Positions 2,388-40,858 of a DNA stretch of 64,000 bases are shown piece by piece; positions within the stretch are counted from its first letter, which is position 1; each line of letters begins with the position of its first letter. This DNA comes from Lathyrus oleraceus (Eukaryota > Streptophyta > Magnoliopsida > Fabales > Fabaceae): assembly GCF_024323335.1 (NCBI RefSeq), contig NC_066581.1:443449816-443513815 (forward strand), read 5' to 3'. The notes beneath the pieces were generated by a model that had not been told where the DNA came from, did no database searches, and was given only the letters and a program-made list of their open reading frames with translations. The position numbers and the translations under genes are program-made.

Positions 2388-2457
2388 GGCCAGCCATTTA
2401 GTTACATTTCGCAATTATTTTCATCATCAATAAAGGACAGCTTTTGCAAACAATTTT

Positions 2458-3528: not shown

Positions 3529-3532
3529 GAGA

Positions 3533-7387: not shown

Positions 7388-7389
7388 AT

Positions 7390-7401
7390 TGGTATCAGAG
7401 A
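7390..7401 (+). other. Primer binding site, initiator tRNA-Met type
   Basis: TGGTATCAGAGA starts two bases after the LTR. It differs at the last base from TGGTATCAGAGC, the usual copia site complementary to initiator tRNA-Met. Confidence 0.85.
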
Positions 7402-7454
7402 AGGCATCCTGCTCTGGTTCTGGGTGAGATCTAGGGGCAATACTTTCCGGTACA

Positions 7455-19352: not shown

Positions 19353-20255
19353 AGCAACTTTCTTAGTGGGTTTTGCCTACTTTTTGCCTTTGTTGTATTG
19401 AATGTTTATATTCTTTGTGACATATTTTTGTGCAAATTTGGGATGACAGTATTGTCTGTAATGTATGAATTGCTTGATATATATCAATTGTTTGTGTGCT
19501 TGGTGGTCTCGTGTGAGATGAGTTCTATACCCGAACTCGAGTGCACTTATGATAGCAGAATGACATAGTCTTGTTGACTTGTGTGGAGTTATTCTTTAGC
19601 AAGTTGACTTGCGCGCCCATTCACTTGGTGGACGTTATGTTGGGATCAATAATGTCACACGAGTAGACGTGGTTAGGCATTACTCTTTCCAATATATGCC
19701 TTAGAAGCCAAGGGCCTTAGATTACCTAACCCATCCTGGTCTGTTTTAGGACGTAGTGCGAAAGTCGTTCAAGTGTAAGATTTGATACGATTGTTACGCG
19801 ATACTAAACTCATAATAGTCTCTCTTGAGAATATTTTTGGAATACGAGTAGTCGTTTATCCGATAATCTCCGAAAGATGGGATGATGACTATTGGAACCT
19901 CTTTTAGAACATGATCGTCAATTTTAACCATACTACACTCCCTTTGGGTGGTTCTTAACCGAGACTCCATGCTCGTGACTTGCAACAAACCCTTGATTCG
20001 CGGTTGATCTGTTCTCGTATATCCTTAATATCAATGGAACTTGGGTGTTGATAAGGTGAAAATCATAATCCACCAAAATGGATGATTGATATTAAGGATG
20101 ACTTGATCCATCCCGTGACCTTTGTGTGGTGTGATTTGCTTGATCCTTGAGTGTGATTGTTGTATCCATGCATTCATGCATTTATACACATCCATATCAT
20201 CAACAATGAGAAAATTTTCAAGGAACTTAAGAGGTCTATTTGCAAATTTTCCGAC
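19353..20255 (+). other. 5' leader of outer Ogre
   Basis: 0.9 kb between primer site and ORF1 with no supported gene. It is homologous to the minus-strand leader at 33221-34225: both contain the GGTTCTTAACCGAGACTCC-type block and a repeated CCTTAATATCAA block near the 3' end (about 20020 and 20088). Such long structured leaders suggest internal initiation or packaging roles, which I only infer. Confidence 0.65.
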
Positions 20256-20621
20256 ATGGATAAGCAAAGAAGGAATACGAAGAAGTACAGTTTCAGACAA
20301 CCCGACTTGAAAGAGTTAAGGAGTTTGACATCCTTTGTATTAGATCCCTTTGAGTTCAAAGCTCGCCATGGGAAGCTTCTGTCAATTATTGCTACTCAGG
20401 TAGATGAAGGTTTGATGAGTGTGTTGGTGCAGTTTTATGATCCTCTGTACCGTTGCTTCACTTTTCCGGATTTCCAGCTTTTGCCTACGCTTGAGGAGTA
20501 TGCCCATCTTGTGGGTATACCTATCCTACATCAGTTGTCGTTCAGTGGCTTGGAGAGAGTTCCTTTTTCCCAAGAGATTGTTGATCGGTTGCATATAAAT
20601 GTATTTGATATTGGTGCTCAT
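20256..20621 (+). pseudogene. Ogre ORF1, N-terminal part (interrupted)
   Basis: In-frame ATG at 20256 begins MDKQRRNTKKYSF, then a compact globular sequence (FKARHGKLLSI, VLVQFYDPLYRCFTFPDFQL, EEYAHLVGIP). This matches the extra protein that Ogre elements carry before gag; its function is unknown. I chose this ATG because upstream in-frame codons lie in leader sequence that is not conserved as protein in the second Ogre. Codon 122 (CAT) is the last before the insertion; the reading frame resumes exactly at 39797 once the insert and one duplicated CTCAT are removed. Confidence 0.85.
20617..20621. repeat. Target-site duplication CTCAT (left copy)
   Basis: CTCAT directly before the LTR of the minus-strand Ogre; the perfect partner is at 39792-39796. 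Confidence 0.95.
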
Positions 20622-23600
20622 TGTCGCATCACGCGAAAAACCGGCGGGAAAAGAAAGAAACAACAGAGCCGCCACCGTGCGTTATTTATCCCAAAAGAGG
20701 GAAAGGAAACGCTCGAAGTAAACCTAGGAAAGAACATGGTCTCGCGACCAAAGAGGATGGGTTCGGGAGTCGGTTATGCGAAGGGAAGGTATTAGGCCCC
20801 CTACGCATCCGTAGTACTCTACGGGATCCACGCACAAAAGGAAGGATAAATGGTTGCTAAAACACTGCTCAAACTCACACACACTGGCTGAAAGAGACAA
20901 AAGAGACTGACTCGGCAGGATATCGAATCCTGGGCCTACTTAGTCTATCAGGCATAGACATCAGAGTCGAAGTAGTTCGGATTGGGGAAACGACACATGC
21001 TCGCTAGGATATCGTATCCTATGCATACGTATCTTCTCGGACGAGAGAAGAATCAGAGCATTCGTAGCTCGGCTGACACGCACACAAACAAACAAAGGCA
21101 AAGGCAAACATGGAGCCCGAATGCCAATCACTGGACTTACATCAGCATCCGAACCAAAACGCACACAAAGAGGCAAACGTGGAGCCCAAATGCCAATCAC
21201 TGGACTTACATTGACATCCGAACCTAAACACACACAGGAAACCAACTGCCAATCGCTGGACTTATGTCGGACTCCAACCAGAACACACACAAGGGTGGTT
21301 AAGACACAAAGGGTTGGAAAAGAAAAAGGGCGCCCGGAGAGATCAGCTCAATCTCCTGCCTACATACTTCATCTGGTATGAAGATCAGGGCGATGTAGTT
21401 CCCCTACGCAGGGACAAGGATCTAGCCTAACCAGATAACAGAGGGAGACACAACTCTAGGGAGACTACGACTCGAGCCTAGATGTTGTCATGCAAAGTCG
21501 ACCCTAAGTTAAGGTTTCTAGCTAAATGGCACAAGGGCCAACCTATCCTAGACAAGGCTTGCACAGGAAGCAAGGGTCTCGATTGCAACTAGGGCAAGAG
21601 AAAGGGGAGGTCTCGATCGCAACGAGGGCGAGAGAAAAGAAAGATCTCAATCACACAGGGGTGAGAGAAAAGAGTTAGTGTTAGTGGTTAGTCAAACTCG
21701 GCAAGACATCGCGTCTCGTGCCTACGTATCTCATATGAACATGAGAATCAGAGTTGCCGTAGTTCGGCTAAACAACTCTAAGCATGGCTCACACAGGGAG
21801 TAAGCCACACAGACTTGACTTGCACAGGAAGCAAGTCAAGCACAACCTACCTTGCACAAGGGCAAGTCTAAACTACACCTAAAGAGGCAAAGAAAACAGG
21901 CAATCACAGGAAGCACACTCTATATGCATACAAGAGGCTCACACAAGGGTTAGGCACTAGGGCCAACTGGAATAGGGTAAGTGTGCTCTTAACCTTGCCA
22001 TTGAGAGGCTAAGGTGAAGCAGATGAAAGGATGAAGTGAGGATGAGACCTCACAGCTCTTATCCCTGGCCAGGGGGAGCTAATAGACAAATGAGCATGGG
22101 TCCAGAAAGTGGGAACCCTTCTATACTCGAAGACTCTGACACTGTACACTTTGTACAAGATCTTGGGTTTGTATCCCAATGCATCAACACACAGCAGTGT
22201 GAGCAGAGGGATGACACAACAAGAGTAGTGGGGGATAGATTGCATATCCCTACCTTCCACCAATTGCCTTTTTTGAAGGACTTTCAATGTGTACAGGGAC
22301 AAGATTTAAACATACACAAACATTGCCTCTTAAGGAGGACTTCGGACAGTTTGCCCGGCCAAGTAACAGACCGGGTCTCCAGACTACATGAAGTAAAAGA
22401 GATTATACCTCAAGCAAGTTGCTAAAAAGCAAAGCAAATCAAGTTCAGAGAACTTAAGCAACTAAAGTACCTGAAAAAAGTCAAAACAATCAGCAAACAG
22501 TTCAAAAGTTTAAATCAAAAGGAATTGGTAAACAGTCAACACAGATGGTCAACTGTGCAAGGCACAAGACTCAAACACATGAGTCAAACCTACAAAACAA
22601 AAGTTAGCATGTGATAAACAATCAAGTTCAAACAAGTTTGAATGATCTTTGAGGCATTGGTGCTTAACCTGAAACAGGAACTCAATTGTAAGCTCAAAAG
22701 ACCACTAGGACTAGCCTAGGGTCAAGGATGAAAGAAAAAAGTTAAAACAGCAAAGAAAAGTCAACCAAAGTCAAGGTCAAACATTTAAGAATCAATCTCA
22801 ATTGGTCTCACATTCAAATCATGCATTATTATCATTTCATGAACATTTGAAGTCAAAGTAAGGCAAATGCAAGCTCAAAGAAGTCAATAGAATGACTTGC
22901 ATCAAAAGTCAACTCAAACAATTTCAAAAATCATCAAATAAATCACACTCAATCCTAACATCTAGCATGGTAAGCATGTCAAATTTCATGGCATTTGGAT
23001 GAGAGGAAAGCAGTCAATGAAAATCATGAAGTCAACATAATTTCAAGTAAGCACAATGAAAGTCAACAAACATGGGTCAACTTCAAAAAATCAAATCAAA
23101 TTGAAAACAGATGAGAAATGAATGAGATTAACACCAATGCAAAGCTCAAGATGTCTAGTTATCACATATGAAATTTCATGATCATACAATATGGTATGAG
23201 AATTTCCCAAATGATTTGGCAACATGTAGCACAAAAAGTCAACCATTGACTAGGCAGGGAAGAAAATTCACAATCAAATGGAAAACAGAACAATCAATTC
23301 CAGGAGAAATCACACATGAACTAGACATGTAAGGGAGGGATCATGCAAAATTTGGGGTCATTTGGATGCAAGGAAGCATGTTAACAAAAATTGGGAAAAT
23401 GCACATTCATGGTGTGACACCAAATGTAACACCTAACTTCAAAAAATCAAAGCTCACACACCACATATGATAAATGCACAAACTTTATATCAAAATGAAG
23501 GTGAATGTGTCTAGTTTCACCACGAAAAATTTCAAAACCAAAGGATGCAACATGAGTATTTCACAATTGAAATGGCAAGAGGTATCATTTTTGGTCACAT

Positions 23601-26167
23601 AACACAAACCCTAGAGCCAATTAATATCCAATGATCAGAAAGAATATTAAAAATAATGATAAAAAACTAGACATTTTCATGATCAAGATGCAAAAATTCC
23701 CACAATTTTTGGAGTTGAAATGAATTAAATATGAATTATGGAAGTTGAGTGAATAAATGGGATAACATGAACAAAAAGGATGAATCAAATGGTCAAAGTA
23801 ATTGACTGCATGGCAATTTTGCAATATAGCGCACCACTAACCAAAACGCCTGCGTTTCAAGTGGCCAAACGAAATAACCTCATTGGTTGGCTTTCAATAG
23901 AACAGTATACATGTAGGGCAAACAACAACAGCAGCCAATCGAAGCTCATCTTTCTGGGCAACATTCATGTTCATACAACCTAGGGTTTGGCTAAACAGCA
24001 TGCAATTCATCATCTTCAACATCATAACACGAATTTCAAAAGCAATAATTCACAACCAACATGGCAAATAAAAACTCATGCAGACATCAGCTAGCCACAA
24101 ACACACCTAATTTCATGCAAATTCTGGGCAGATTCAAAGGCATGAGCAACAGGGTATTATCACCTTCATCAAAATCGACCAAGAACAAATTCCCCAGAAA
24201 ACGATAACAAGCATATCAAAAGCTTTAGCAAAACAAACACAAACATAATATAACATCCATTACCATCAATCCAAGCTCACATGGAAGAATCAGACAGAAA
24301 ATCATTTGAACACCAATCTTCAAAATCAAAATACTCACTCCATACTTAACCATTTTCAACAATCTAAGGCTCTTTGGACTCAGCAAGATGTAATCTATTT
24401 AAAACATGGCACAAATAGGAGAAAAAGGAAGGTCGAATTCTTACTTGGTAGTGAAGAAAATCGAGCAACAGTGGTTGTTTGAAGGTTTTAAGCTCAAACA
24501 GATGTTCTCTTGGCCTTGCAATGATGGAGGATGAAGTATGTTAGCTCAGCAACTCTTGAGAACTTCCAAAACTCGACTTGCCATTAAAGGTCCTTGAAGA
24601 AAACAGAGCACGATCCTCACTTCCAGTTGGTATTTGCTAGTTCAAAAAGTTTCCAAATGGTGGTCAGAACATGGAGGAAGCAAGAATGCTCGAGGGTCTT
24701 TGGAGCTTTTGGTAGAAAAATGTAAATGTGCAAAAATGCAAGAATGAGAGAGTGAGGATTTCTGGCTCGATGGAGGCTGTGTCTAGGGTTGCTTTGTGCT
24801 GAAATGAAGCTTATGTACTTCTGTTTAGCATTGTTAATCCATGTGCTAAGTTGGTTTAGTTTAAAATGAATCATTTGCCATTTTGCTAATTTGCACATAA
24901 GTGGATATGGAGGGTGTATGGCTGCACGAATGGGCTTGGAAATAGGCTGCAAACAGACCTCATATTTGCTGTTTGTCATCTGTTCATGAATTGCTAACCT
25001 TGTTTTACTTGTTTCACACCATTTGCAAGAATTGCCAAGTTTGCATTTTTGGCCAAAATGATGGTATGGTAGTGGTATGTGCATGAGTTAGGGCTTGGAA
25101 CAAGTTTCAAATGTCATTCTAAACATTTCCCAATTGGCCAATTGTGTCAAAAGTGTTTAAATCAAAAAGTCAAACTTGAGTCAAACTTGATTTTTAAATG
25201 AAATAGGTCAAAAAATGCCATTTTGATTGGCAAGGTTTTGGGGCATGAAACTTATATTTTTGGAAAGAGTAGGAAAAATGTGGTTTGTAGGAAAAAACCC
25301 CACCAAATTTGGCCAAAGGAATCATGAGATATGGCCATTTGAAGTTCAAGATTTTGTGAAAATTATTTGATCATATCTTGCAAACCATTCATGGGAATTG
25401 AGACTTCTTGGACTTTTTGAAAATGGGAGAACAAGATCTTCAACTTTCATGTTGGGCAAAAATTCTTTTGAAGCTTGTATCATGATGCAAGCTGAGGATC
25501 AAGAAGTTTCCATTTTTGGCAGTTAAAATTACAGGTCCAGTTTCTATTTTGGGAAATTTTCTGATTGGCTTCAAATTCTTCAATGATGTTTATTGCCATG
25601 ACACATGAGGTCTATTAGGACATGAATAAGCTCTCTCAAACCATTTCCATCCATCAAATCCACAAAATCAACCACAGTTGACCAACTTTGACTTTCTAGG
25701 GTTTCTGACTGTCTATGCACTGACTGATGAATTCCAAACCCTAATTCCTTGAGACCTTGACTTCAAATGATGTCCCAAGTTGTATGAACTCTTGATTATT
25801 GACCATGGTGCCCAAATTCCACAAGAATGGCCACCATTCACTGCTTTGACTGATTGTTGACTTTCTAGGGTTTTTGCCTGGCTATGCATTGACTGATGAC
25901 CTCTGAGCCTTCAACCCTTGACTTGAACACTTCAAATGGACCCCCAAGACATGTGAGCATGATGGAAAAACCCTAAGGCCTTGGCTCCTTGAGAATTGTG
26001 CTTGCTTGCTTGGTTGACTGATCTCCTGATCAATTTGACCTAATTTCTTGCTTGCTTGCTCTTGAGGCAACTGGGGACAATGCAAATGCTATGCAATGTA
26101 TCATGATATGCTATGACCTAATATGAGATGATATGTACAATGATAGGTGCAAATTTGAGGTGCTACA
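20622..26167 (-). repeat. 3' LTR of inner Ogre derivative (left copy)
   Basis: 5546 bp; on the minus strand it starts TGTAGCACCTC and ends GCGATGCGACA. Nearly identical to 34246-39791 at a constant offset of 13,624. ORFs inside it recur unchanged in the other LTR and are not genes. The plus-strand left end (U5) carries four two-hairpin modules. Confidence 0.96.
20912..21768 (-). repeat. Four two-hairpin modules in U5 of inner Ogre LTR
   Basis: On the + strand each module reads: stem1-loop-stem1', G(T/G)GCCTAC, stem2-loop-stem2', ATCAGAG-like, GTAGTTCGG-like. Stem1 arms: AGGAT/ATCCT (20917-20931), AGGAT/ATCCT (21006-21020), GAGAT/ATCTC (21339-21355), AGAC/GTCT (21704-21716). Stem2 arms: GTCTAT/ATAGAC (20943-20959), CTTCTC/GAGAAG (21033-21050), CTTCAT/ATGAAG (21367-21383), TCTCAT/ATGAGA (21729-21746). 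Flanks are conserved while arms change as pairs. The other LTR has the same set 13,624 bp downstream, where they would form the 5' end region of the RNA near the primer site. Confidence 0.8.
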
Positions 26168-26180
26168 GCTGCCCCTATTC
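26168..26180 (-). other. Polypurine tract of inner Ogre derivative
   Basis: Minus strand GAATAGGGGCAGC directly before the TGTAGC start of the 3' LTR; the expected primer for plus-strand DNA synthesis. Confidence 0.8.
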
Positions 26181-26283
26181 AATCAGCTGGGAACCCGAAC
26201 GGATGATAGCAACGGCTGTCAGACTTTCAGGGTAAACAGGGATTGAATACAAAAGAACCGCAGAAATTTGCACCGACTGGATA

Positions 26284-27785
26284 TGATATAAGAAGAACCA
26301 CGTCATTTACCGATGACAACTTCAGAGAAACAAAACCATTTACCGATGGTTGAAGAACCGGAACCTTGATATTTACCGATATCAACTTCAGCGAGACCAT
26401 TTACCGATGGCGGCTGGGGAAAACAAACCTTTGAAAAACAAAACCATTTACCGATGGTTAAAGCTGGGACTTTGATATTTACCGATATCAACTTCAGCAA
26501 GACCATTTACCGATGGCTGCTGGGAAAAACAAACTTCTGAAAAACAAACCATTTACCGATGGTTAAAACTTGATATTTACCGATATCAACTTCAGCAAGA
26601 CCATTTACCGATGGCTGCTGGGAAATAATTTGATGTAGGAAGGAAACAAGACCATTTACCGATGGTGGCTTCAAAGAAACTTGACATTTACCGATGTCAA
26701 CTTAGCAAGACCATTTACCGATGGCTGCTGCAACTGAGAACTCGATATTTACCGATATCGAAGAAAACTGGGCCATTTACCGATGGCATCTCCGCTTGGG
26801 GAGGAACAAAATCTTTGTGGTGATACCAGACAAGACGTTTACCGACGACTTCTGGGGATTTTGATTTTATTAGCGAAAGAACAAAGAATGACCAGACATT
26901 TACCGATGACTGGGGTGAGACTCGATGTTTACCGACATCGAAAGATGATGTTTACCAACATCAAAAAGAATGACCAGACATTTACCGATGACTGGGGTGA
27001 GAAATTTATTGGTGAGAGACAAACAAATATTCGCAACTGGAAACCAGATAGGACATTTACAGATGACTCTACTGGGGATTTCTGGCTGGGGAAATATCAG
27101 ACATTTACCGATGACTGAAAGGAAGACTCGATGTTTACCGACACCGAGGCAATGGCGTTTACCGACACCAAAAAAGACCAGACATTTACCGATGACTGGG
27201 TGAGACTCGATGTTTACCGACACCGAAGCAATGGCGTTTACCGACACCAAAAAAGACCAGACATTTACCGATGACTGGGTGAGACTCGATGTTTACCGAC
27301 ACCGAAGCAATGGCGTTTACCGACACCAAAAAAGATGACCAGACATTTACCGATGACTGGGGTGAGAAATTTATTGGTGAGAGACAAACAAATATTCGCA
27401 ACTGGAAACCAGATAGGACATTTACAGATGACTCTACTGGGGATTTTTGTTGGGGATTATCAGACATTTATCGATGACTGAAGAAAAGACTCGATGTTTA
27501 CCGACACCGAAGCAATGGCGTTTACCGACACCAAAAAATGACCAGACATTTACCGATGACTGGGTGGAACTCGATGTTTACCGACACCGAAGCAATGGCG
27601 TTTACCGACACCAAAAAATGACCAGACATTTACCGATGACTGGGTGGAGCTCGATGTTTACCGACACCGAAACAATGGCGTTTACCGACACCAAAAAGAA
27701 TGACCAGACATTTACCAATGACTGGGTGGAGCTCGATGTTTACCGACACCGAAACAATGGTGTTTACCGACACCAAACAAAGAAA
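26284..27785 (-). repeat. Hairpin array with constant TTACCG loop (sense loop CGGUAA)
   Basis: Dozens of copies of TTTACCGA, most of them inside a perfect short inverted repeat. Arms differ but match: GTCAT/ATGAC (26302-26317), AACCAT/ATGGTT (26334-26351), TTGATAT/ATATCAA (26366-26385), TTGACAT/ATGTCAA (26681-26700), TCGATAT/ATATCGA (26742-26761), GCCAT/ATGGC (26772-26787), TCGATGT/ACATCGA (26922-26941), TGATGT/ACATCA (26946-26963), TGGTGT/ACACCA (27758-27775). From about 27126 the array turns into ~80 bp tandem units inside a ~360 bp higher-order repeat. Confidence 0.88.
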
Positions 27786-28750
27786 CACACGCGGGTGCTG
27801 ACATGACACTTACTGGTATCACAAGAACGATATCTGAGATATGTCAAAGCAAGACTGATCACTTGCTGGGAGGGTCTCACTGGGGGAGAAACAAACTTCT
27901 GTCACCATCGGGTGAGGAAATAAACCTCTGTCACCATCGGGTGAGGAGATAAACCTCTGTGGGGATAATCAAATCTGAATACTGTCGAAGCAACTGTAGC
28001 TGTTTTGCTGTGCTGATGTTGAACAAAATGACCTGCCTCTGCCGGGGATACGGTCTGATGTGGTTTTGAACACATGAATGCATATGTTTGAATTTTTCTA
28101 TGGCGTAATGCTCCATATGGGATGGAAATGCTACGCAGTTTTGAGGATGCAATGATTACTATATGCAATGCAATATGATAAGAACTCTGCGGGAGAAGTA
28201 CACAGGACGACTGTGCTGAGGAATCTTCAAGATAAATCCACTGCCGGGGGACAACAAAACAACTGCTGGGGAACCAACAATACAACTCCGCTAGGGGAAG
28301 ACAAAGCAACTCGCTGGGGAGTAAAAATGCCACTCTGCTAGGGGAAAGCAAAGGTAAACTGCTGGGGATAGCCCAATCAATCCACAAAAATTCCGCTTGG
28401 GGAAATGAAAGCTCCGCTGGGGGAAACTAAACCAGGCAACTCTCTGGTGGTAAGGCTCATACAAACCTCAGATAAAAACTATGCCTTGGGAAAATGACAG
28501 TTACTCTGCCGGGGACGACCCACACAGTTCACGAGTAGAATCAACTCAGCTGGGGATGCAGGTATCGACCTGCTACTGAAACCTGTCCAATCCACTGGTG
28601 GGATGAACTCTCCTGGAGAAATATTTCGTGAAACCCGCTCCACTCGGGGATCAAGGTCACAACAGCAAGCAAACAGGAAGGAACACCAAGGATACCGGGT
28701 TGTAGGTATGAAACGGGTGACCGACCAAAGCGTGAATTGGTTTGAATGCC
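27786..28750 (-). other. 3' UTR spacer of inner Ogre derivative
   Basis: About 1 kb without a gene. Many short blocks of the form CTGCTGGGGA / CTCTGCTAGGGG / CCGCTTGGGG recur every 30-40 bp (28190-28560), a loose degenerate tandem pattern. ORFs on the minus strand here are repeat translations. Confidence 0.6.
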
Positions 28751-28866
28751 ATAAGTACATCGACCTGATCGTCGGAAACTTCTTCGGTCTGAATACCGGA
28801 AAAAACACATAAGTACATCGACCTGATCGTCGGAAACTTCTTCGGTCTGAATACCGGAAAAATTGG
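28751..28866 (-). repeat. 58 bp tandem duplication
   Basis: The block starting ATAAGTACATCGACCTGATC occurs at 28751 and 28809 with essentially no differences, indicating a recent duplication. It contains the inverted pair CGGT/ACCG. Confidence 0.9.
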
Positions 28867-28911
28867 CCTGAGCGCCAAAGCGTGAATTGGTTTGTGTTCC
28901 AAAACACTCAA

Positions 28912-29550
28912 CATCCTGAAGAGGGCTAGAAAAGCAGTCTTGTTAAAGGATGGACATTCGATTCCATAAGGAACACGAATCTTACTCTGCTGGAGATAAC
29001 AATCGAGAGATTGACCAAAGAGTGCATGAGACATATTATCTACAGCCGTCAAAACGTAGATAATAACCTCGCATGGAAGATTATCCATAACCGGGTTGTA
29101 GGTTGTTAGATGAATAATCGACCGAAAACATCCTGAAGAGAGCAAAGGCAAACTTGTTAAAGGATGAACATCCGATTCCACAGGGAATACGAATCTTACT
29201 CTGCTGGTGATGACAATCGAAAGATTGACCAAAGAGTGCATGAGATATATTATCTATAGCCGTCAAAACGTAGATAGTAAACCTCGCATGGAAGATTATC
29301 CATAACCGGGTTGTAGGTTGTTAGATGAATAATCGACCGAAAACATCCTGAAGAGAGCAAAGGCAAACTTGTTAAAGGATGAAATATCCGATTCCGCAGG
29401 GAATACGAATCTTACTCTGCTGGTGATAACAATCGAAAGATTGACCAAAGAGCGCATGAGATATATTATCTATAGCCGTCAAAACGTAGATAATAACCTC
29501 GCATGGAAGATTATCCATAACCGGGTTGTAGGTTGTTAGATGGATAAACG
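28912..29550 (-). repeat. Three tandem ~216 bp units
   Basis: Units begin CATCCTGAAGAG at 28912, 29129 and 29344. Each contains CAATC-GA(A/G)A-GATTG, ATTATCTA...TAGATAAT and ATGGA-AGATTA-TCCAT inverted repeats. The long minus-strand ORF across it is a by-product of the repeat. Confidence 0.9.
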
Positions 29551-29728
29551 ACCGAAAAGAAGGGCATCAGGGTACCAGGAATAGGTATGCAAAAGATGAC
29601 CAATCAAAAGAGGATAAAGTTGCTAACTCGGAGCAAATACCCAAAGAGAAGGGGAAGACCCAATGGGGACAATACTGCTTGATCAAGGCAAGTAACCAAG
29701 GGGACAAGACCATTAATACCACAGAGAG

Positions 29729-30155
29729 GGGATTACATCTACCGGTTTGTAGGCAGAAAACCACGGAAAAGTGACCAGTCATCATCGGGATGAGCACAAA
29801 GGGTTAACTCCAACAAGGGGAGGAATGTGGGATTTTACAACTACCAGCTTGCGGGTAGAAAACCACAAAGATAGGACTTACAGCTACCGGTTTGTAGGTA
29901 GAGGCCACTGGAAAAGTAACCAGTCATCATCGGGATGAGCACAAAGGGTTAACTCCAACAAGGGGAGGAATGTGGGATTTTACAACTACCAGCTTGCGGG
30001 TAGAAAACCACAAAGATAGGACTTACAACTACCAGTTTGTAGGTAGAGGCCAAGAAACGGTCTGCTGAGAGACAAAGTGAGAAAAAGGATTCACAACTAC
30101 CGGGTAGCGGGTAGAAGACCGTAAAGAAAGGACTTACAGCTACCGGTTCGTAGGT
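29729..30155 (-). repeat. Hairpin repeats CTACC...GGTAG, ~145 bp higher period
   Basis: Recurring CTACC-(G/A)GYTTGYR-GGTAG blocks (for example near 29856, 29894, 30030, 30140). One copy near 29733 has CTACC/GGCAG, which pairs with G-U on the minus (sense) strand. Longer blocks starting ACCAGTCATCATCGGGATG repeat at 29774 and 29919. A related block near 28690 has ATACC/GGTAT arms around a similar loop. Confidence 0.7.
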
Positions 30156-31734
30156 AGAGGCCCACAAATTCCACTGAGGATAAGATGAATGAGTGCCGGT
30201 TAGTGAGCAACTATTCATTTATGCCCCAGGGAAGCACAGGAGACAGCCAACAGGAAGCCAATTTAGGATCGATCCAAAAAGGCAGACTGAAACAGGACTC
30301 ATCCTAATGAGGAAAGAACTCAATAGGGAAAACCCATCCCGTGTAGGGAGGGAACGGAAACAACCGTCATCCACGAGGAGGTATCTTAGTGGGGAGTGCA
30401 GAAGGAAATGGTAGACACTTTCTGCTTAAGGGGTTGGCTCTACATGGAGAGGTCAGACACACCCATATCTGCTTAAGAAAAAAATCTACTGGAGAAATCT
30501 GTATCAACAAATAGCAGGAGGTAACAATCAACAGATACACGGCAACAGCTGCAACATGAGTACCTGAATGCTATGATTATGCATGTATGTATTATACCTA
30601 AAATGTATGATGAATGCTGACAAACAGACATGCTGAACACGCAGGTCCAGGGATCAACCACCCGGTACTACTCTTTTTCCATAGGGAAGGCCAAAAACAC
30701 CAAAGAGCAAACGCGATCTGCTGGAAATCGGGATATCAAGGAACAACACCATCCTGCGGGGAGAGGAGAAGACTGCTCTGTTGGAGAGAGGAAAGTTAAA
30801 GTCTTCAATAAACACTCTGCTAGGGGAGCTGCCCCACAATAATGTCCAAAACAACAACCTTGCTGGGGATGCCCCACGATAGGGCTCAAACAGCACTCTA
30901 CTGGGGATGCCCCACAATAGAGCTAACAGGGATTTGGAGGAAGAAACTGTACTGCCGGGAACATGAAGATGAACAACTTCAAACAACACTGAATCGGGCA
31001 AATTCACTGAGGAGAGACCATATGAGGTTCTGCAGGACGAAGATACAGTCATGCTCGGGATACGAACAATTGTCTTACTTGTTGGTAATCATACCACCCT
31101 CGGGAGAGCGCTGTGGGTCTCCTAAGTACTCTTTCCATCATTGTGAAGGTTCACTTTGTTTAAGAACAATAATTTTTGAAAAATTTGTTTATTTTGAAAA
31201 CAATGATACTTTATCATTTAAAACATGCAAAATATTTGTTGAGTTAAAACAAATAAGAGTGCAAACAATTGGCTAAAAGCTCAAATTGACGTGATGGAAT
31301 GGTAGTCTGCAAAGGGCGAGACTCCATAGATCTGTACAAGTTTGAAATCGGTGATATATATTGGAGAGGGCTACATTGAACATAATGACCTTTCCTCTAC
31401 CATTCTGAATTTTCGATGTATTCAAAGCTTCAGTCGATGACGAATCGAGAACCCCTGACGGATGACAGATATGGAGCACAGTCTTGTCAAGATGCAGTTA
31501 CTTGCCCAATCCCTAATTTTTGCCTAGATTGCCCCAGTGTGAGGTGTTCAATCTAGCGGGATGAAAATTCTTTTTTTTTTCAATGTCTCTTACTTTTGCC
31601 TGGATCGCCCTTTCGGGTTTTCAATCCACCGAGACGCTCCTTTTTGCCTAAGTCGCCTTTTGGGGTGTTCGACTTAGCGAGCTTTTGATTTTTTTGTTTT
31701 TTGTAGGCGAAGTATTTCTTGACTGCATCGGAAT
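30156..31734 (-). other. 3' UTR of inner Ogre derivative, integrase-proximal part
   Basis: 1.6 kb with no supported gene. 30780-30930 has three GCCCCACRATARNGCT-type repeats. 31500-31720 contains pyrimidine-rich blocks with GCCCTTTCGGGTTTTC and CGCCTTTTGGGGTGTTC, the reverse complement of the blocks following integrase in the first Tat/Ogre-type element (3780-3980). Confidence 0.65.
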
Positions 31735-31960
31735 TCACAGGACGAGTGAACTTCTCCATCCATGGTTGTGAGTGTCGAACACTGCCTGAAGAGGCTCTTT
31801 TGACAACATATGCACGTTCATAGCTTGGAGTTCACTTGCCCCTGGAATCGGGCACGAAAGACAAGACTTTCTTGAGCACAAGGTCCCTCGGAACACACGA
31901 GGCTTGATCTTCTTGTCGAATGCTTTCATCACTCTCTGCTGATATGACTGACCACGACAC
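31735..31960 (-). pseudogene. Integrase C-terminal remnant of inner Ogre derivative
   Basis: On the minus strand the sequence reads YQQRVMKAFDKKIKPRVFR, then shifts frame and continues with integrase-tail text ending near the counterpart of NSDAVKKYFA. It corresponds to 3533-3760 of the first element. A small deletion after PRVFR breaks the frame. No catalytic residues are present. Confidence 0.75.
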
Positions 31961-32342
31961 ATGGCAGTTGATCTCTTCTTTTCGATCGAATTCAGCATCA
32001 GCCAACTTGGGACCTTGAGGGTGCTATTTCTCTTTTGTTTTTTCTTTCTTTCTTTTTCTTTTGATTTTGCTTTTGATTTTGCTTCTGGTTTCTTTTGATT
32101 TTGATTTTGATTTTGCTTTTGATTTTGCACCCTCTCTTTCTTTTCTTTTTTTTGATAATGCCCCAATTGGCTGTTCTGCTGATTCTCGAGATGCAGCTGA
32201 GTGTGATCTTCTTTTTTGCTCAAGAAGTCGGGAAATACCATCAGGAATCCCTTCAACATCATCTTCGTCCGCTTCAAATACAGGGAATTCAAAATTGGGA
32301 GATGACGTCCGATCACTATGTTCAATGGGTTTAAGAAATAAC
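31961..32342 (-). pseudogene. RT-exon start fused to low-complexity sequence
   Basis: Begins right after the candidate splice acceptor with the LKPIEH-type segment that opens the RT exon (compare 44704-44887), continues for about 45 codons of acidic linker and then enters an A-rich, lysine/serine-coding simple repeat (32040-32155, CAAAATCAAAAG-type). RT, both RNase H domains and the integrase core should follow but are absent; the integrase tail comes next. Confidence 0.7.
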
Positions 32343-32616
32343 CTGCATAATGATTTTGATATGAAAAGCTTTTTTTTTGAAAATCAAACAAGACAATCGT
32401 TAAGCAGATGAAAAGATTGCTTTTATTCTTGTTTTTTAAGGTTTTTTTGTGATCACCAATTTCATGCAAAAAGCGAAAAGGGAAAACAATTGGAAAAACA
32501 AATGTTTTAACATGAATTTATTTGAATGGAAATATCATTGCACAAAATGTTGCCAACAATGCCATCACTTCTCCTTTTGGCATGGGAGAAGGGTTTTTAA
32601 ACAAAGTGATTGTTAC
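32343..32616 (-). other. Candidate GT-AG intron of inner Ogre derivative
   Basis: Donor AGA|GTAACA at 32616 downward and acceptor ATTATGCAG|G ending at 32343, 274 bp. Splicing would replace the protease stop (GAGTAA) and join GA+G into a glutamate codon in frame with LxLKPIEH. Homologous to 44512-44703 in the outer Ogre. Ogre elements are known to carry an intron between protease and RT; these exact sites are my inference. Confidence 0.6.
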
Positions 32617-32850
32617 TCTGACTTATGAACAGCTGTAGGAACGCCCACAGTGACCCAATTGTGACAGACACCACCAGGGATGATGAAATTGTTCAAGTCC
32701 TTTGCGTCCTCTTCCAAGATAGCAGCATCCTCTTCTTTAGGTTGATCGTCAGGGATGAATCCTCCACTCTTGAACAGACCTTGCTCATTGCATGCCCCAG
32801 AACAGTAGCCAATGCCAGCCCGGGATTTAGTTAACCAGGAATAAATCCAT
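32617..32850 (-). pseudogene. Protease-tail remnant of inner Ogre derivative
   Basis: Minus strand matches 44290-44511 of the outer Ogre: SRVEDSS-type and CSRxxx text, then an acidic EED-rich stretch and IVPGGVC-type end before the candidate donor. Only the last ~75 codons of the gag-pro exon remain; the protease active site is gone. Confidence 0.7.
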
Positions 32851-33060
32851 CAACAGTACTTTGTCTGGCAAAAATCTCTCTGAATTCACAATTCTCTTGC
32901 TCAGGATGATCCATCAATCTGGCAGAGATGGCTCTGGTATAATACTGGCAAAGTGCGTCTTCAAAATAAATGAAGATCGCAGGGTCAGACCACAGGACGG
33001 GAGACCGGAACAGAACCTGCTGATGCAAATGATGCATGAAGTGTTTATGCATATGCTTGT
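32851..33060 (-). pseudogene. gag-start remnant of inner Ogre derivative
   Basis: Minus strand encodes IFIYFEDALCQYYTRA and MDHPEQENCEFRE, the counterpart of IYFEDKLTHRYNTRA and MDHLKQENRELKE at the start of gag in the outer Ogre (41145-41260). After about 25 codons of gag proper the sequence jumps to the protease tail. The frame is open upstream to 33052, which hints that translation could start before MDH. Confidence 0.75.
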
Positions 33061-33070
33061 TTTTATTTCA

Positions 33071-33220
33071 AAGGAACTCGAGGGTTTTATTTGCAAACTT
33101 TGAAATATTTAGCATTTTGATCATATATGAGAATATCTCATCAGATATATCAGGTGAAAAAATTTTCCCGGTTTTTTCATGTTTTGAAATTTTTTGCAAA
33201 TAAACTCCTTTGAGTTCCTT
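33071..33220 (-). repeat. Inverted repeat replacing ORF1
   Basis: Arms 33071-33097 (AAGGAACTCGAGG then TTTATTTGCAAA) and 33193-33220 (TTTGCAAATAAA then GAGTTCCTT) pair along ~24 of 27 positions around a 95 bp loop. It lies at the junction where the leader meets the gag-proximal sequence, with all of ORF1 missing. Confidence 0.7.
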
Positions 33221-34225
33221 GAAAATTTTCTTTTTTCTTTTGATATGGATGCAGATGAATGTATGAATGCATGGATGCAACAAACACACTCATGGATCAA
33301 GCAAAGCACGCCAAACAAAGGTCGTGGGAAAGCTCATTGTATCCCTAATATCAATCATCCATTTTGGTGGATTTAGGTTTTCACCTTATCGACACCCAAG
33401 TTCCATTGATATTAACGGTACATGAACCGGCTCAAACATCCTTAATATCAACCAGCCGCTTTGGTGGATTTTAGGTTTTACCCCTGATCCGGGATCCATT
33501 GATATTAACAATGTTTGAACGACTCAACCACGAATCATGGGTTTGTTGAGATTCACGAGCATGGAGTCTCGGTTAAGAACCACCCAAAGGGAGTGCACTA
33601 GGGTTTAAACCTGCCAAACATGTTCTATTAGAGGTTCCCATAATCATCGTTCCATCTCTCGAATATTGTCGGAGGAACGAATACTCGTATTCCAAGAATA
33701 TTCTCAAGAGAAACTCTTATGAGTGTAGTATCGCGTAACAATCGTATCAGAACTGACATCTGAACGATCTCCGCACTACGGTCCTAAAAATAGGCCAAGA
33801 TGGGTTTGGTAAACTAAGGTCCTTGGCTTCTGCGGCACATGATTGAAAGAATAATGCCTAACCACAAATAACTTGTGTGACATTATTAGTTCAACATGAC
33901 CTCCACCAAGTGAATGGTCTCGCAAGTCAACTGGCTAAGGAATACTCCACACCAGTCAACAAGACTATGCCATTCTCCTATCCTAGAGTGCACTCGAGTT
34001 CGGGTATAGAACTCATCTCACAAAGGAACACAGACAACCAGCCAGGCAGAATGAATAATGAATAAATGCAAACATTAATGCAAACAAAAAATGCAAACAA
34101 TAAATGCACATATATACAATGAATGCAATAAATAACAGCACAAAGCAACCAAAACCCTAATCCTAGAGAGCGCTAGGAGAGACTCGCTCAGGGAAGATGG
34201 ACCAGCATAGGTCAACTTCTCTATA
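33221..34225 (-). other. 5' leader of inner Ogre derivative
   Basis: 1 kb, no gene. Homologous to 19353-20220 of the outer Ogre, including the CGAGACTCCATGCTCGTGA block and two copies of TTGATATTAA-containing text with an adjacent TTTTGGTGGATT-type block (about 33340-33430 and 33440-33505). Retained in full although nearly all coding sequence was lost. Confidence 0.7.
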
Positions 34226-34243
34226 TCCCCAGCAGAGTCGCCA
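34226..34243 (-). other. Primer binding site, tRNA-Arg type (inner Ogre)
   Basis: Minus strand TGGCGACTCTGCTGGGGA, two bases from the 5' LTR (34246). It fixes the orientation of the element. Confidence 0.9.
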
Positions 34244-34245
34244 GC

Positions 34246-37200
34246 TGTCGCATCACGCGAAAAACCGGCGGGAAAAGAAAGAAACAACAGAGCCGCCACC
34301 ATGCGTTATTTATCCCAAAAGAGGGAAAGGAAACGCTCGAAGTAAACCTAGGAAAGAACATGGTCTCGCGACCAAAGAGGATGGGTTCGGGAGTCGGTTA
34401 TGCGAAGGGAAGGTATTAGGCCCCCTACGCATCCGTAGTACTCTACGGGATCCACGCACAAAAGGAAGGATAAATGGTTGCTAAAACACTGCTCAAACTC
34501 ACACACACTGGCTGAAAGAGACAAAAGAGACTGACTCGGCAGGATATCGAATCCTGGGCCTACTTAGTCTATCAGGCATAGACATCAGAGTCGAAGTAGT
34601 TCGGATTGGGGAAACGACACATGCTCGCTAGGATATCGTATCCTATGCATACGTATCTTCTCGGACGAGAGAAGAATCAGAGCATTCGTAGCTCGGCTGA
34701 CACGCACACAAACAAACAAAGGCAAAGGCAAACATGGAGCCCGAATGCCAATCACTGGACTTACATCAGCATCCGAACCAAAACGCACACAAAGAGGCAA
34801 ACGTGGAGCCCAAATGCCAATCACTGGACTTACATTGACATCCGAACCTAAACACACACAGGAAACCAACTGCCAATCGCTGGACTTATGTCGGACTCCA
34901 ACCAGAACACACACAAGGGTGGTTAAGACACAAAGGGTTGGAAAAGAAAAAGGGCGCCCGGAGAGATCAGCTCAATCTCCTGCCTACATACTTCATCTGG
35001 TATGAAGATCAGGGCGATGTAGTTCCCTTACGCAGGGACAAGGATCTAGCCTAACCAGATAACAGAGGGAGACACAACTCTAGGGAGACTACGACTCGAG
35101 CCTAGATGTTGTCATGCAAAGTCGACCCTAAGTTAAGGTTTCTAGCTAAATGGCACAAGGGCCAACCTATCCTAGACAAGGCTTGCACAGGAAGCAAGGG
35201 TCTCGATTGCAACTAGGGCAAGAGAAAGGGGAGGTCTCGATCGCAACGAGGGCGAGAGAAAAGAAAGATCTCAATCACACAGGGGTGAGAGAAAAGAGTT
35301 AGTGTTAGTGGTTAGTCAAACTCGGCAAGACATCGCGTCTCGTGCCTACGTATCTCATCTGAACATGAGAATCAGAGTTGCCGTAGTTCGGCTAAACAAC
35401 TCTAAGCATGGCTCACACAGGGAGTAAGCCACACAGACTTGACTTGCACAGGAAGCAAGTCAAGCACAACCTACCTTGCACAAGGGCAAGTCTAAACTAC
35501 ACCTAAAGAGGCAAAGCAAACAGGCAATCACAGGAAGCACACTCTATATGCATACAAGAGGCTCACACAAGGGTTAGGCACTAGGGCCAACTGGAATAGG
35601 GTAAGTGTGCTCTTAACCTTGCCATTGAGAGGCTAAGGTGAAGCAGATGAAAGAATGAAGTGAGGATGAGACCTCACAGCTCTTATCCCTGGCCAGGGGG
35701 AGCTAATAGACAAATGAGCATGGGTCCAGAAAGTGGGAACCCTTCTATACTCGAAGACTCTGACACTGTACACTTTGTACAAGATCTTGGGTTTGTATCC
35801 CAATGCATCAACACACAGCAGTGTGAGCAGAGGGATGACACAACAAGAGTAGTGGGGGATAGATTGCATATCCCTACCTTCCACCAATTGCCTTTTTTGA
35901 AGGACTTTCAATGTGTACAGGGACAAGATTTAAACATACACAAACATTGCCTCTTAAGGAGGACTTCAGACAGTTTGCCCGGCCAAGTAACAGACCGGGT
36001 CTCCAGACTACATGAAGTAAAAGAGATTATACCTCAAGCAAGTTGCTAAAAAGCAAAGCAAATCAAGTTCAGAGAACTTAAGCAACTAAAGTACCTGAAA
36101 AAAGTCAAAACAATCAGCAAACAGTTCAAAAGTTTAAATCAAAAGGAATTGGTAAACAGTCAACACAGATGGTCAACTGTGCAAGGCACAAGACTCAAAC
36201 ACATGAGTCAAACCTACAAAACAAAAGTTAGCATGTGATAAACAATCAAGTTCAAACAAGTTTGAATGATCTTTGAGGCATTGGTGCTTAACCTGAAACA
36301 GGAACTCAATTGTAAGCTCAAAAGACCACTAGGACTAGCCTAGGGTCAAGGATGAAAGAAAAAAGTTAAAACAGCAAAGAAAAGTCAACCAAAGTCAAGG
36401 TCAAACATTTAAGAATCAATCTCAATTGGTCTCACATTCAAATCATGCATTATTATCATTTCATGAACATTTGAAGTCAAAGTAAGGCAAATGCAAGCTC
36501 AAAGAAGTCAACAGAATGACTTGCATCAAAAGTCAACTCAAACAATTTCAAAAATCATCAAATAAATCACACTCAATCCTAACATCTAGCATGGTAAGCA
36601 TGTCAAATTTCATGGCATTTGGATGAGAGGAAAGCAGTCAATGAAAATCATGAAGTCAACATAATTTCAAGTAAGCACAATGAAAGTCAACAAACATGGG
36701 TCAACTTCAAAAAATCAAATCAAATTGAAAACAGATGAGAAATGAATGAGATTAACACCAATGCAAAGCTCAAGATGTCTAGTTATCACATATGAAATTT
36801 CATGATCATACAATATGGTATGAGAATTTCCCAAATGATTTGGCAACATGTAGCACAAAAAGTCAACCATTGACTAGGCAGGGAAGAAAAATCACAATCA
36901 AATGGAAAACAGCACAATCAATTCCAGGAGAAATCACACATGAACTAGACATGTAAGGGAGGGATCATGCAAAATTTGGGGTCATTTGGATGCAAGGAAG
37001 CATGTTAACAAAAATTGGGAAAATGCACATTCATGGTGTGACACCAAATGTAACACCTAACTTCAAAAAATCAAAGCTCACACACCACATATGATAAATG
37101 CACAAACTTTATATCAAAATGAAGGTGAATGTGTCTAGTTTCACCACGAAAAATTTCAAAACCAAAGGATGCAACATGAGTATTTCACAATTGAAATGGC

Positions 37201-39791
37201 AAGAGGTATCATTTTTGGTCACATAACACAAACCCTAGAGCCAATTAATATCCAATGATCAGAAAGAATATTAAAAATAATGATAAAAAACTAGACATTT
37301 TCATGATCAAGATGCAAAAATTCCCACAATTTTTGGAGTTGAAATGAATTAAATATGAATTATGGAAGTTGAGTGAATAAATGGGATAACATGAACAAAA
37401 AGGATGAATCAAATGGTCAAAGTAATTGACTGCATGGCAATTTTGTAATATAGCGCACCACTAACCAAAACGCCTGCGTTTCAAGTGGCCAAACGAAATA
37501 ACCTCGTTGGTTGGCTTTCAATAGAACAGTATACATGTAGGGCAAACAACAACAGCAGCCAATCGAAGCTCATCTTTCTGGGCAACATTCATGTTCATAC
37601 AACCTAGGGTTTGGCTAAACAGCATGCAATTCATCATCTTCAACATCATAACACGAATTTCAAAAGCAATAATTCACAACCAACATGGCAAATAAAAACT
37701 CATGCAGACATCAGCTAGCCACAAACACACCTAATTTCATGCAAATTCTGGGCAGATTCAAAGGCATGAGCAACAGGGTATTATCACCTTTATCAAAATC
37801 GACCAAGAACAAATTCCCCAGAAAACGATAACAAGCATATCAAAAGCTTTAGCAAAACAAACACAAACATAATATAACATCCATTACCATCAATCCAAGC
37901 TCACATGGAAGAATCAGACAGAAAATCATTTGAACACCAATCTTCAAAATCAAAATACTCACTCCATACTTAACCATTTTCAACAATCTAAGGCTCTTTG
38001 GACTCAGCAAGATGTAATCTATTTAAAACATGGCACGAATAGGAGAAAAAGGAAGGTCGAATTCTTACTTGGTAGTGAAGAAAATCGAGCAACAGTGGTT
38101 GTTTGAAGGTTTTAAGCTCAAACAGATGTTCTCTTGGCCTTGCAATGATGGAGGATGAAGTATGTTAGCTCAGCAACTCTTGAGAACTTCCAAAACTCGA
38201 CTTGCCATTAAAGGTCCTTGAAGAAAACAGAGCACGATCCTCACTTCCAGTTGGTATTTGCTAGTTCAAAAAGTTTCCAAATGGTGGTCAGAACATGGAG
38301 GAAGCAAGAATGCTCGAGGGTCTTTGGAGCTTTCGGTAGAAAAATGTAAATGTGCAAAAATGCAAGAATGAGAGAGTGAGGATTTCTGGCTCGATGGAGG
38401 CTGTGTCTAGGGTTGCTTTGTGCTGAAATGAAGCTTATGTACTTCTGTTTAGCATTGTTAATCCATGTGCTAAGTTGGTTTAGTTTAAAATGAATCATTT
38501 GCCATTTTGCTAATTTGCACATAAGTGGATATGGAGGGTGTATGGCTGCACGAATGGGCTTGGAAATAGGCTGCAAACAGACCTCATATTTGCTGTTTGT
38601 CATCTGTTCATGAATTGCTAACCTTGTTTTACTTGTTTCACACCATTTGCAAGAATTGCCAGGTTTGCATTTTTGGCCAAAATGATGGTATGGTAGTGGT
38701 ATGTGCATGAGTTAGGGCTTGGAACAAGTTTCAAATGTCATTCTAAACATTTCCCAATTGGCCAATTGTGTCAAAAGTGTTTAAATCAAAAAGTCAAACT
38801 TGAGTCAAACTTGATTTTTAAATGAAATAGGTCAAAAAATGTCATTTTGATTGGCAAGGTTTTGGGGCATGAAACTTATATTTTTGGAAAGAGTAGGAAA
38901 AATGTGGTTTGTAGGAAAAAACCCCACCAAATTTGGCCAAAGGAATCATGAGATATGGCCATTTGAAGTTCAAGATTTTGTGAAAATGATTTGATCATAT
39001 CTTGCAAACCATTCATGGGAATTGAGACTTCTTGGACTTTTTGAAAATGGGAGAACAATATCTTCAACTTTCATGTTGGGCAAAAATTCTTTTGAAGCTT
39101 GTATCATGATGCAAGCTGAGGATCAAGAAGTTTCCATTTTTGGCAGTTAAAATTACAGGTCCAGTTTCTATTTTGGGAAATTTTCTGATTGGCTTCAAAT
39201 TCTTCAATGATGTTGATTGCCATGACACATGAGGTCTATTAGGACATGAATAAGCTCTCTCAAACCATTTCCATCCATCAAATCCACAAAATCAACCACA
39301 GTTGACCAACTTTGACTTTCTAGGGTTTCTGACTGTCTATGCACTGACTGATGAATTCCAAACCCTAATTCCTTGAGACCTTGACTTCAAATGATGTCCC
39401 AAGTTGTATGAACTCTTGATTATTGACCATGGTGCCCAAATTCCACAAGAATGGCCACCATTCACTGCTTTGACTGATTGTTGACTTTCTAGGGTTTTTG
39501 CCTGGCTATGCATTGACTGATGACCTCTGAGCCTTCAACCCTTGACTTGAACACTTCAAATGGACCCCCAAGACATGTGAGCATGATGGAAAAACCCTAA
39601 GGCCTTGGCTCCTTGAGAATTGTGCTTGCTTGCTTGGTTGACTGATCTTCTGATCAATTTGACCTAATATCTTGCTTGCTTGCTCTTGAGGCAACTGGGG
39701 ACAATGCAAATGCTATGCAATGTATCATGATATGCTATGACCTAATATGAGATGATATGTACAATGATAGGTGCAAATTTGAGGTGCTACA
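34246..39791 (-). repeat. 5' LTR of inner Ogre derivative (right copy)
   Basis: 5546 bp, same length as 20622-26167. Visible substitutions include 34301 (G/A), 35028, 35360, 35517, 37446 and 39654; no indels seen. Contains the same U5 hairpin modules (34536-35392). As the 5' LTR it drives transcription leftward. Confidence 0.96.
38019..38028 (-). promoter_or_regulatory. Possible TATA element in inner Ogre 5' LTR
   Basis: Minus strand TTTTAAATAG, about 1.77 kb from the LTR start, a position comparable with the TATAAATAG of the outer Ogre LTR. Weak match; no experimental support in the sequence. Confidence 0.35.
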
Positions 39792-39796
39792 CTCAT

Positions 39797-40858
39797 ATGA
39801 CTACCAAAGGTGGAATTCAAGGTCTCCCATATGATTTCCTCATTGCTCAAGCTACTCTATTTGGGAAGGCCATGAGTGAGGACGCCTTTGAAGCCATATT
39901 TGTACTTCTCGTCTATGGGCTAGTGTTATTCCCCAACATCAACAACTTTATGGATGTGAATGCTATTAGGATTTTCTCTACTCTTAATCCCGTTCCTACT
40001 CTGTTGGGTGACACTTATTTCTCTTTGCATATGAGGAATGCAAAGGGTGGTGGTACCATTGTGTGCTGCTTGCCTCTGTTGTACAAGTGGTTTATTTTGC
40101 ACTTGCCATAGACGCTCGCCTTTAAGGAGAACAAAGGATGTCTACGGTGGTCCACGAGACTTATGTCTCTCACTAATGATGACATCTTTTGGTATAACCG
40201 TGTATATGATGGTGTGAAGATTACTGACTCTTGCGGTGAATTCTCCAATGTGCCTATTCTTGGTACATGTGGTGGGATTAACTACAACCCTACTTTGGCT
40301 CGTCGTCAGCTTGGGTTCCCCTTAAAGGATAAACCTAATAACATTTTGTTAGAAGGTCTGTTCTTTCAAGAGGGTAAAAATCCCCAAAACTTGAAGGGAG
40401 GGATGGTCCGCACTTGGCGCAAGATTCATAGGAAGGGAAGGAAAGAGCTTGGTCCGAAGAATTGTATTGCTTTGGTACCCTACACCTCGTGGGTGAGGAA
40501 GAGAGCTTTTGAGTACCGCATGCCCTATGATTACCCGAGACCTACACCTATGGTTATGGTTGGGCCTTCAACCCTCCCTGACCAAGGAGTAGAGGAGTTG
40601 AGAGATGAAGACCGTTCGCGTGCTTGGCTCCGTGAGCGAGAAGAGCTACTTCAGCAACTTAGAGATAAGGATGCTTTGATAGATTTTCTGGAGCATCAGG
40701 TTATCGACGAGCCTGATGATATGGTGACTTCTCTTCTTCCTCAGTCATCCTGATTTTGGAAGAGGAAGTAAGATCGACTCGCCATGGAGAAGGCAGATAT
40801 GGAGGCAGCCTATGAGAGAGAGGTGAAGAGGCTTCGTGCAGCTTATCTTCCGGTCTAG
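39797..40858 (+). pseudogene. Ogre ORF1, C-terminal part
   Basis: Resumes in frame with MTTKGGIQGLPYDFLIAQA, followed by NINNFMDVNAIRIF, HMRNAKGGGTIVCCLPLLYKWF, DSCGEFSNVPILGT and a C-terminal coiled-coil-like, E/R-rich segment (LREREELLQQLRDKDALIDFLEHQ). Total ORF1 would be about 475 codons. In-frame stops at 40109-40111 (TAG), 40751-40753 (TGA) and shortly after break it; the natural end is probably TAG 40856-40858. Function unknown; the family is confined to Ogre-like elements as far as I know. Confidence 0.85.

Follow-up and report, generated by a model that had tools for sequence, protein, structure and literature searches.

In the 3′ untranslated region (UTR) of a long terminal repeat (LTR) retrotransposon of pea, Lathyrus oleraceus, a tandem array of short hairpins, here termed array 1, keeps one loop sequence constant while the two arms of the stem change together. 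The element lies in a 64,000-nucleotide stretch of contig NC_066581.1 (forward-strand positions 443,449,816 to 443,513,815; hereafter the window, to which the coordinates below refer) and appears, from the domain order of related copies, to be of Tat/Ogre type. Array 1 occupies 26284-27785 on the minus strand and, judged from the window sequence and 30 genomic copies, consists of 44 units whose loop, CGGUAA, is closed by U-A and whose stems, of five to seven pairs, differ between units. Covariation of the arms around the loop beyond shuffled and slid controls is supported, and the pattern of change among copies favours selection of the stems as sense RNA. The array is probably a multi-copy cis-acting RNA element in the 3′ UTR of the retrotransposon's transcripts, with a fixed loop presented by pairing stems.

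The 44 units match the sense 8-mer UCGGUAAA with at most one mismatch; 39 have the exact loop, and among these 39 are 16 distinct arm pairs. Matches to TTTACCRA on both strands of the whole window number 49 against 5.0 expected, the maximum of 100 shuffles being 11. Over seven positions the 16 arm pairs have a mean pairing of 6.06, against 4.54 when permuted and a maximum of 5.69 in 20,000 permutations. As sense RNA all 44 units pair at the inner five positions if G·U and one U·U are allowed: 14 are Watson-Crick throughout, 17 have G·U, and 13, including the commonest unit CAGUCAU/AUGUCUG, have one U·U, sited at the fourth pair. A·C occurs at the inner five pairs of none of the 44. These G·U pairs exist in the sense (minus) strand alone, the opposite strand showing A·C, and a local folding model has 38 of the 44 sense units forming with a probability above 0.5. 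Between 27098 and 27777 the array has a period of 79-82 bp, with unit spacings of 79, 80 and 82. An extra, diverged unit beyond 27785 (27803-27822, minus strand; GTGATAC CAGTAA GTGTCAT, closing pair C-G) pairs at seven of seven positions with G·U allowed and brings the total to about 45 hairpins; near the arrays of the 30 loci it has 18 identical occurrences and a one-base variant occurs four times.

An earlier note on this DNA, made from the letters alone, had described a constant-loop hairpin array at 26284-27785 with perfect stems around TTACCG or TTACCA. The array is there, as is every stem named, but perfection is confined to the 14 units with Watson-Crick pairing at all five inner positions, and the bounds leave out the unit at 27803-27822. 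Both loops occur as well, though TTACCA (UGGUAA in sense) looks not like a second type but, as with CAGUAA, like a change of the loop CpG; since both variants alter that CpG, they are read as cytosine decay. One-mismatch loops near the arrays of L001-L030 are CAGUAA (46), CUGUAA (33), CGAUAA (9) and UGGUAA (5), nearly all retaining at least four of the five inner pairs.

The 30 loci (16 of them minus-strand hits) contributed 954 exact-loop units, which reduce to 91 distinct 20-mers, and the 42 of these present in at least two loci each form the covariation set. Units with a loop other than CGGUAA were dropped before counting, so that loop invariance in the set is built in; one analysis left out alignment columns that had fewer than five exact loops, and another those with fewer than 15 sequences. 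Against 500 arm shuffles and slid-partner controls, and with tandem copies that are non-independent, covariation among the 42 units is 0.644 compared with 0.269 for the shuffles (standard deviation 0.025; none of 500 reaches it) and at most 0.181 for slid partners. Paired cells make up 84.7% against 63.4% shuffled, and six of the seven pairs vary on both sides. The claim that both arms change and still match is in this respect borne out by other copies. In homologous units A-U, G·U and G-C substitute for one another, a single pair of one aligned unit, for example, having G·U 19 times, A-U 8 and G-C 2. The inner unit-positions examined number 200. At 17 of them two or three standard pairs coexist, each found in two or more loci; 11 have a non-standard pair that recurs in two or more loci (at nine the standing U·U, at the other two U·C and A·G), and at none does A·C so recur.

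Whether this reflects selection or mutation can be approached by setting changes shared by at least two loci against those private to one, which serve as a neutral yardstick: private changes would mostly postdate insertion, and shared ones would have passed through replication. By aligned column, the private changes of array 1 from a Watson-Crick majority are 14 to G·U, 13 to A·C and 18 other; the shared ones are 7, 3 and 4, with 5 double Watson-Crick replacements and, additionally, 11 from G·U to Watson-Crick. The spacers lean the opposite way, with 50 shared changes of G·U type against 81 of A·C type. A network of the 18 shared inner arm pairs has seven G·U steps and no A·C step, together with three same-pair doubles and six steps involving other mismatches; private network changes are 5 from Watson-Crick to G·U and 11 to A·C. 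With p-values that are optimistic, because tandem units share history and choosing units by their loop somewhat favours loop conservation, this contrast of 7:0 with 5:11 gives p = 0.005 (Fisher), that of pair-breaking changes (7 shared, 31 private) with pair-keeping ones (23 and 24) gives p = 0.006, and that of loop with spacer gives p = 0.0003, shared variants per site being 0.042 in the loop, 0.100 in the inner stem and 0.345 in the spacer. Since the shared inner changes go by way of G·U and not A·C while private changes show both, and since shared change is rarer in loops than in spacers, the comparison favours selection on the stems as sense RNA. The earlier proposal that the structure is selected is thus partly supported, by the contrast of G·U with A·C and by the low rate of shared change in loops; a protein that binds the loop, or contact between RNAs, would be no more than a candidate agent. 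Kissing with the element's own RNA is unlikely, because the array 1 element of the window has no UUACCG, the loop's complement, in its sense strand. The corresponding candidate for the second array described below, TC.GGCT, is absent from 1-6178 and was likewise rejected.

The strongest extension of the constant-loop claim is array 2, which the earlier note lacked. At 5197-5820 on the plus strand, where a different element of this lineage has its 3′ UTR, 14 hairpin units have the loop AGCCNGA/C and covarying stems of 5 bp, such as GAUCU AGCCAGA AGAUC, GAUUC AGCCAGA GAAUC, GGUCU AGCCCGA AGACC and GAUCC AGCCCGC GGAUC. Twelve fetched copies have 275 units, with 80 G·U cells and 9 A·C at the inner five pairs. 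For the 20 distinct shared units from these 12 loci covariation is 0.598, against 0.343 shuffled (standard deviation 0.038; none of 500 reaches it) and at most 0.189 slid, and 97.9% of cells are paired compared with 86.2%. The shared network, from which the arm type CAGCA was excluded for a stem offset by one base, has eight G·U steps, one A·C, two other and two same-pair doubles; the spacers are about balanced between G·U-type and A·C-type changes (shared 21:19, private 79:62). The host element is represented at 1-3757 (plus strand) by pieces of gag, protease, RNase H and the integrase C-terminus in broken frames, most of the reverse transcriptase (RT) and the integrase core not being found there by tblastn with the frames of L041, one of the fetched array 1 loci. 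Identity to L041 is 48-51% for gag, 70% for part of the protease and 65-83% for pol pieces, with the RNase H and integrase pieces 80-83% identical between the two families, and by these similarities the array 2 host is placed in the lineage of the array 1 family. The same 3′ UTR has, at 4565-4672 (plus strand), three 34-bp repeats with ACAGU...ACUGU arms around AUCCAG or GCCAG, and a Copia-type element with LTRs about 96% identical lies at 6179-13952, beside or inside the array 2 element.

The element carrying array 1 was delimited by self-alignment and lies on the minus strand between a 3′ LTR at 20622-26167 and a 5′ LTR at 34246-39791, each of 5546 bp and 99.62% identical, with 21 mismatches and no gaps. 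It is flanked by the target site duplication ATGAG, in minus-strand reading (left copy 20617-20621, right copy 39792-39796). The purine-rich tract AATAGGGGCAGC beside the 3′ LTR (26168-26179, minus strand) would by position be the polypurine tract, and TGGCGACTCTGCTGGGG (34227-34243, minus strand), adjoining the 5′ LTR, is a primer binding site by position only. In sense orientation array 1 stops about 120 bases upstream of the purine tract. The sole coding remnant found inside the element is an integrase C-terminus (31706-31995, minus strand; 50-54% identity by tblastn with L041 frames), with neither gag nor RT, so that the 3′ UTR would span about 31705 to 26168. This copy is a non-autonomous derivative; because its LTRs are near-identical, it seems to have moved recently though without gag or RT.

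In the genome of 3.795 Gb, 40 of 4580 candidates were scored and all 40 match array 1; a pattern made up of three array 1 cores occurs 14,518 times, and its reversed control 8 times. For 12 of the 30 fetched loci the 10-kb flank upstream was read: three flanks have full-length gag and pol similarity, five gag fragments only and four no gag match (E 1e-10). Long open frames precede the array in L033 and L041, and gag-pol of L037 is interrupted. Array loci beside gag-pol copies have the array and the LTR start in common with the window element, and the array is kept in copies lacking gag-pol, the window copy among them. In L033 and L041 a gag-protease frame is followed by RT, RNase H, a second RNase H and integrase, Pfam placing RT_RNaseH, then RVT_3, then Integrase_H2C2 and rve in the pol frames; the family accordingly has a gag-protease frame separate from that for RT, the two RNase H domains and integrase, and has tandem repeats in its 3′ UTR. 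Passages of one study give the second RNase H (aRH) as the mark of Tat, located between RNase H and integrase in Ogre and Retand (PMC6317226). Because the second RNase H lies at that point here, a Tat/Ogre-type lineage of Ty3-type LTR retrotransposons is supported for the array 1 element by domain order. The earlier attribution to an Ogre 3′ UTR holds as to 3′ UTR and lineage, within which the element may be Ogre or its sister Retand. The label Ogre is that of the earlier note and would fit the elements known from pea.

Several results weigh against the reading as a selected, cis-acting RNA element. The measures least misled by relatedness, which are near their ceiling in array 1, show no excess there: pairs changed on both sides are 6 against 6.0 shuffled, and further pair types 16 against 16.3. 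In array 2 they are weak, at 3 against 2.0 (125 of 500 shuffles reach it) and 9 against 7.4 (10 of 500). Array 1 units are tandem relatives and independent events are few; the commonest unit retains its U·U mismatch, and three A·C variants are shared, all at outer pairs 6-7. Antisense array 1 folds equally well by thermodynamics (39 of 44 units), so folding energy by itself does not single out a strand, and array 2 stems are weakly predicted, with four of 14 units above 0.5. Private changes in array 2 are as G·U-biased as shared ones, 8:1 in both, which leaves array 1 as the sole source of the contrast between shared and private changes. Counted across the genome at the second pair, a second core being required nearby, the A-U form has 72,135 matches, G·U 849 and A·C 956 (reversed-pattern controls 5, 3 and 19), and so G·U is not above A·C; neutral decay of most copies would lead one to expect this, but it gives no support. 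Finally, as regards Gag as the reader of the loop, Pfam shows no zinc knuckle in the gag-protease frame of either L033 or L041.

If the array is nonetheless a cis-acting RNA element, each unit would be a short hairpin showing a fixed loop, U[CGGUAA]A in the array 1 family and AGCCNGA in that of array 2. The loop would be recognised and the stem would only have to pair, so that both arms could drift jointly by way of G·U intermediates as tandem duplication adds further units. An unchanging loop on paired but freely varying stems is the outcome expected of selection by a factor that reads the loop. A putative loop-binding factor may use the repeats by avidity to select or hold genomic RNA, the many copies conferring both avidity and tolerance of loss. 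Position at the 3′ end, presence with or without gag-pol and near-identical LTRs fit a cis-acting signal, and such a signal would explain how the array is kept and the element mobile after loss of gag and RT. A tentative suggestion is that such binding serves to package or traffic the RNA together with Gag from the same element. More speculative is the possibility that 3′ UTR arrays of Ogre type are a family-specific RNA address code, with the loop as the address, read by Gag or a captured host protein. Stems and spacers, being free to change, might then outrun small-RNA silencing, and turnover of loops between families with similar pol would leave 3′ UTRs hypervariable yet kept and gag-less copies mobile.

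The design could also be mutational bookkeeping, in which template-switching by RT or during replication (quasipalindrome correction) copies arm onto arm with no function involved. Perfect palindromes such as TTGATAT/ATATCAA are frequent, and same-pair double changes, three in array 1 and two in array 2, are of the kind such copying would leave. The process is, however, blind to strand and gives Watson-Crick palindromes, whereas 17 of the 44 window units have G·U, and none A·C, at the inner five pairs in sense, and the shared inner steps of array 1 include G·U and no A·C; nor does it account for the loop changing far less than the spacers. We give arm copying a small chance of being the whole explanation. 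Inheritance of pairing from a few ancestral hairpins, duplicated so that covariation is an accident of old divergence under no present constraint, draws on the facts that related sequences can beat shuffles without structure, that array 1 has just 18 shared inner arm pairs, that tandem duplication spread the units and that the relatedness-robust measures do not exceed shuffles. It is made very improbable by the slid controls, which keep relatedness yet reach at most 0.181, although a structure read off the same sequences tends to win such a comparison, by the under-representation of pair-breaking among shared variants and by a second family having the same design with a different loop.

In 39 of the 44 window units the loop and the closing base after it spell G|GUAAA, which resembles a 5′ splice site and is complementary to U1. 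CGGUAA(A) loops might on that ground be weak sites for U1 snRNP, protecting a very long transcript from premature polyadenylation or acting as splicing decoys, but the AGCCNGA loop of array 2 has no GU and a U1 site would not be expected to need a covarying stem, and this we regard as improbable. Much the same standing is given to selection at the level of DNA, with inverted repeats bound as DNA, forming cruciforms or making up a nascent satellite. Repeats from Ogre 3′ UTRs seed satellites in Lathyrus, according to parts of PMC7004042, and the 79-82 bp period at 27098-27777 is satellite-like. DNA-level selection would, however, be strand-symmetric, and the inner stems of array 1 show G·U in the sense strand and not A·C. 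The usual inverted-repeat protein site, moreover, has the opposite pattern to a conserved spacer with free arms, which counts against the DNA reading. Coding of protein by the arrays was rejected, since units spaced 79, 80 and 82 apart would not stay in frame.

A constant-loop scan of 184 kb (the window and the 12 flanks) recovered array 1, array 2 and one scattered cluster with a 4-base loop at 54787-56346, which is taken for chance; three Markov controls of the same length gave no hits, and a stricter scan recovered array 1 alone. Perfect stems of at least 6 bp number 11 in array 1 against 1.3 shuffled, 21 in the LTR against 8.6 and 1 in 27860-30900 against 2.5, and 5-bp stems 14 in array 2 against 2.8, 51 in the LTR against 29.5 and 34 in 30901-34245 against 19.7; since the LTR and 30901-34245 also exceed shuffles, part of the hairpin excess is not special to the arrays. 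Against Rfam, neither 20000-40000 nor 3700-6200 reaches the gathering score of any family, and the best hits fall far short of it. Other repeats of array 1's 3′ UTR, at 27888-27945 and 29718-30052, have hairpins CACC-ATCG-GGTG and CATC-ATCG-GGATG that apparently covary, and further tandem repeats there, with periods of 23-47, 58 and 215 bp, lie at 28247-28368, 28750-28862 and 28910-29558. The 79-82 bp period at 27098-27777 is close to the monomer of 82 reported in part of PMC2206039 for the pea repeat TR-3, lengths alone being compared. Elsewhere, tandem repeats at 59825-60080 and at 142-340 of L057 contain GTTAACCGGTTAAC, a self-complementary word; those of L057 differ from arrays 1 and 2 in that the arms are constant, around a 7-base loop that is nearly so. 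Pieces of a third family of this lineage, more diverged than the other two, lie at 41166-44365 and 62339-63889 (gag 32-36% and RT 76% identical to L041), apparently interrupted by other elements and with the 3′ UTR outside the window; two fetched stretches aimed at that 3′ UTR have no such arrays, the sequence there being other, nested sequence.

Hypervariable tandem repeats in the 3′ UTRs of Tat/Ogre LTR retrotransposons were reportedly described by Macas in 2009. They have so far been treated as by-products of replication that seed satellites, and passages of PMC7004042 ascribe them to illegitimate recombination or strand transfer. While tandem repeats at this site are known, covarying hairpins among them are apparently new: no report of such hairpins in Ogre 3′ UTRs was found in a literature search of open-licence papers, and the main texts of PMC7004042 (hairpins, palindromes or stems), PMC6317226 (hairpins or secondary structure) and PMC2206039 (hairpins, palindromes, inverted or secondary structure) make no mention of them. 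If two families do keep structured arrays with fixed loops, these repeats would be functional RNA and not junk, the loop sequence would be a handle on RNA selection by plant Ty3-type elements and on mobilisation of their gag-less relatives, and some plant satellites might descend from RNA signals. Ogre elements account for much of certain legume genomes, being put at 45% of that of L. sativus in part of PMC7004042.

With the known Tat/Ogre repeats the present arrays share the site between pol and 3′ LTR, the lineage and tandem units that differ between families; the difference is that those were described as by-products or satellite seeds, whereas here a fixed-loop covarying RNA hairpin is conserved. 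For Ty3, the relevant parts of PMC4974528 report that sequences in the UTR or in POL were needed to localise and package the RNA, and that internal sequences are dispensable if the proteins are supplied in trans. Packaging or trafficking signals such as those of Ty3, Ty1 and retroviral psi resemble the arrays in being cis-acting and kept in gag-less copies. In retroviruses the packaging signal comprises a single structured element or a handful, usually close to the 5′ end, in contrast to some 45 near-equivalent hairpins at the 3′ end, for which a role of Gag would be by analogy. Tandem hairpins with a constant recognised part are also known from the A repeats of Xist and from phage operator arrays; these do not belong to 3′ UTRs of plant mobile elements, and in them the stem sequence is largely conserved too, whereas in the pea arrays it is the loop that is held and the stem that varies.
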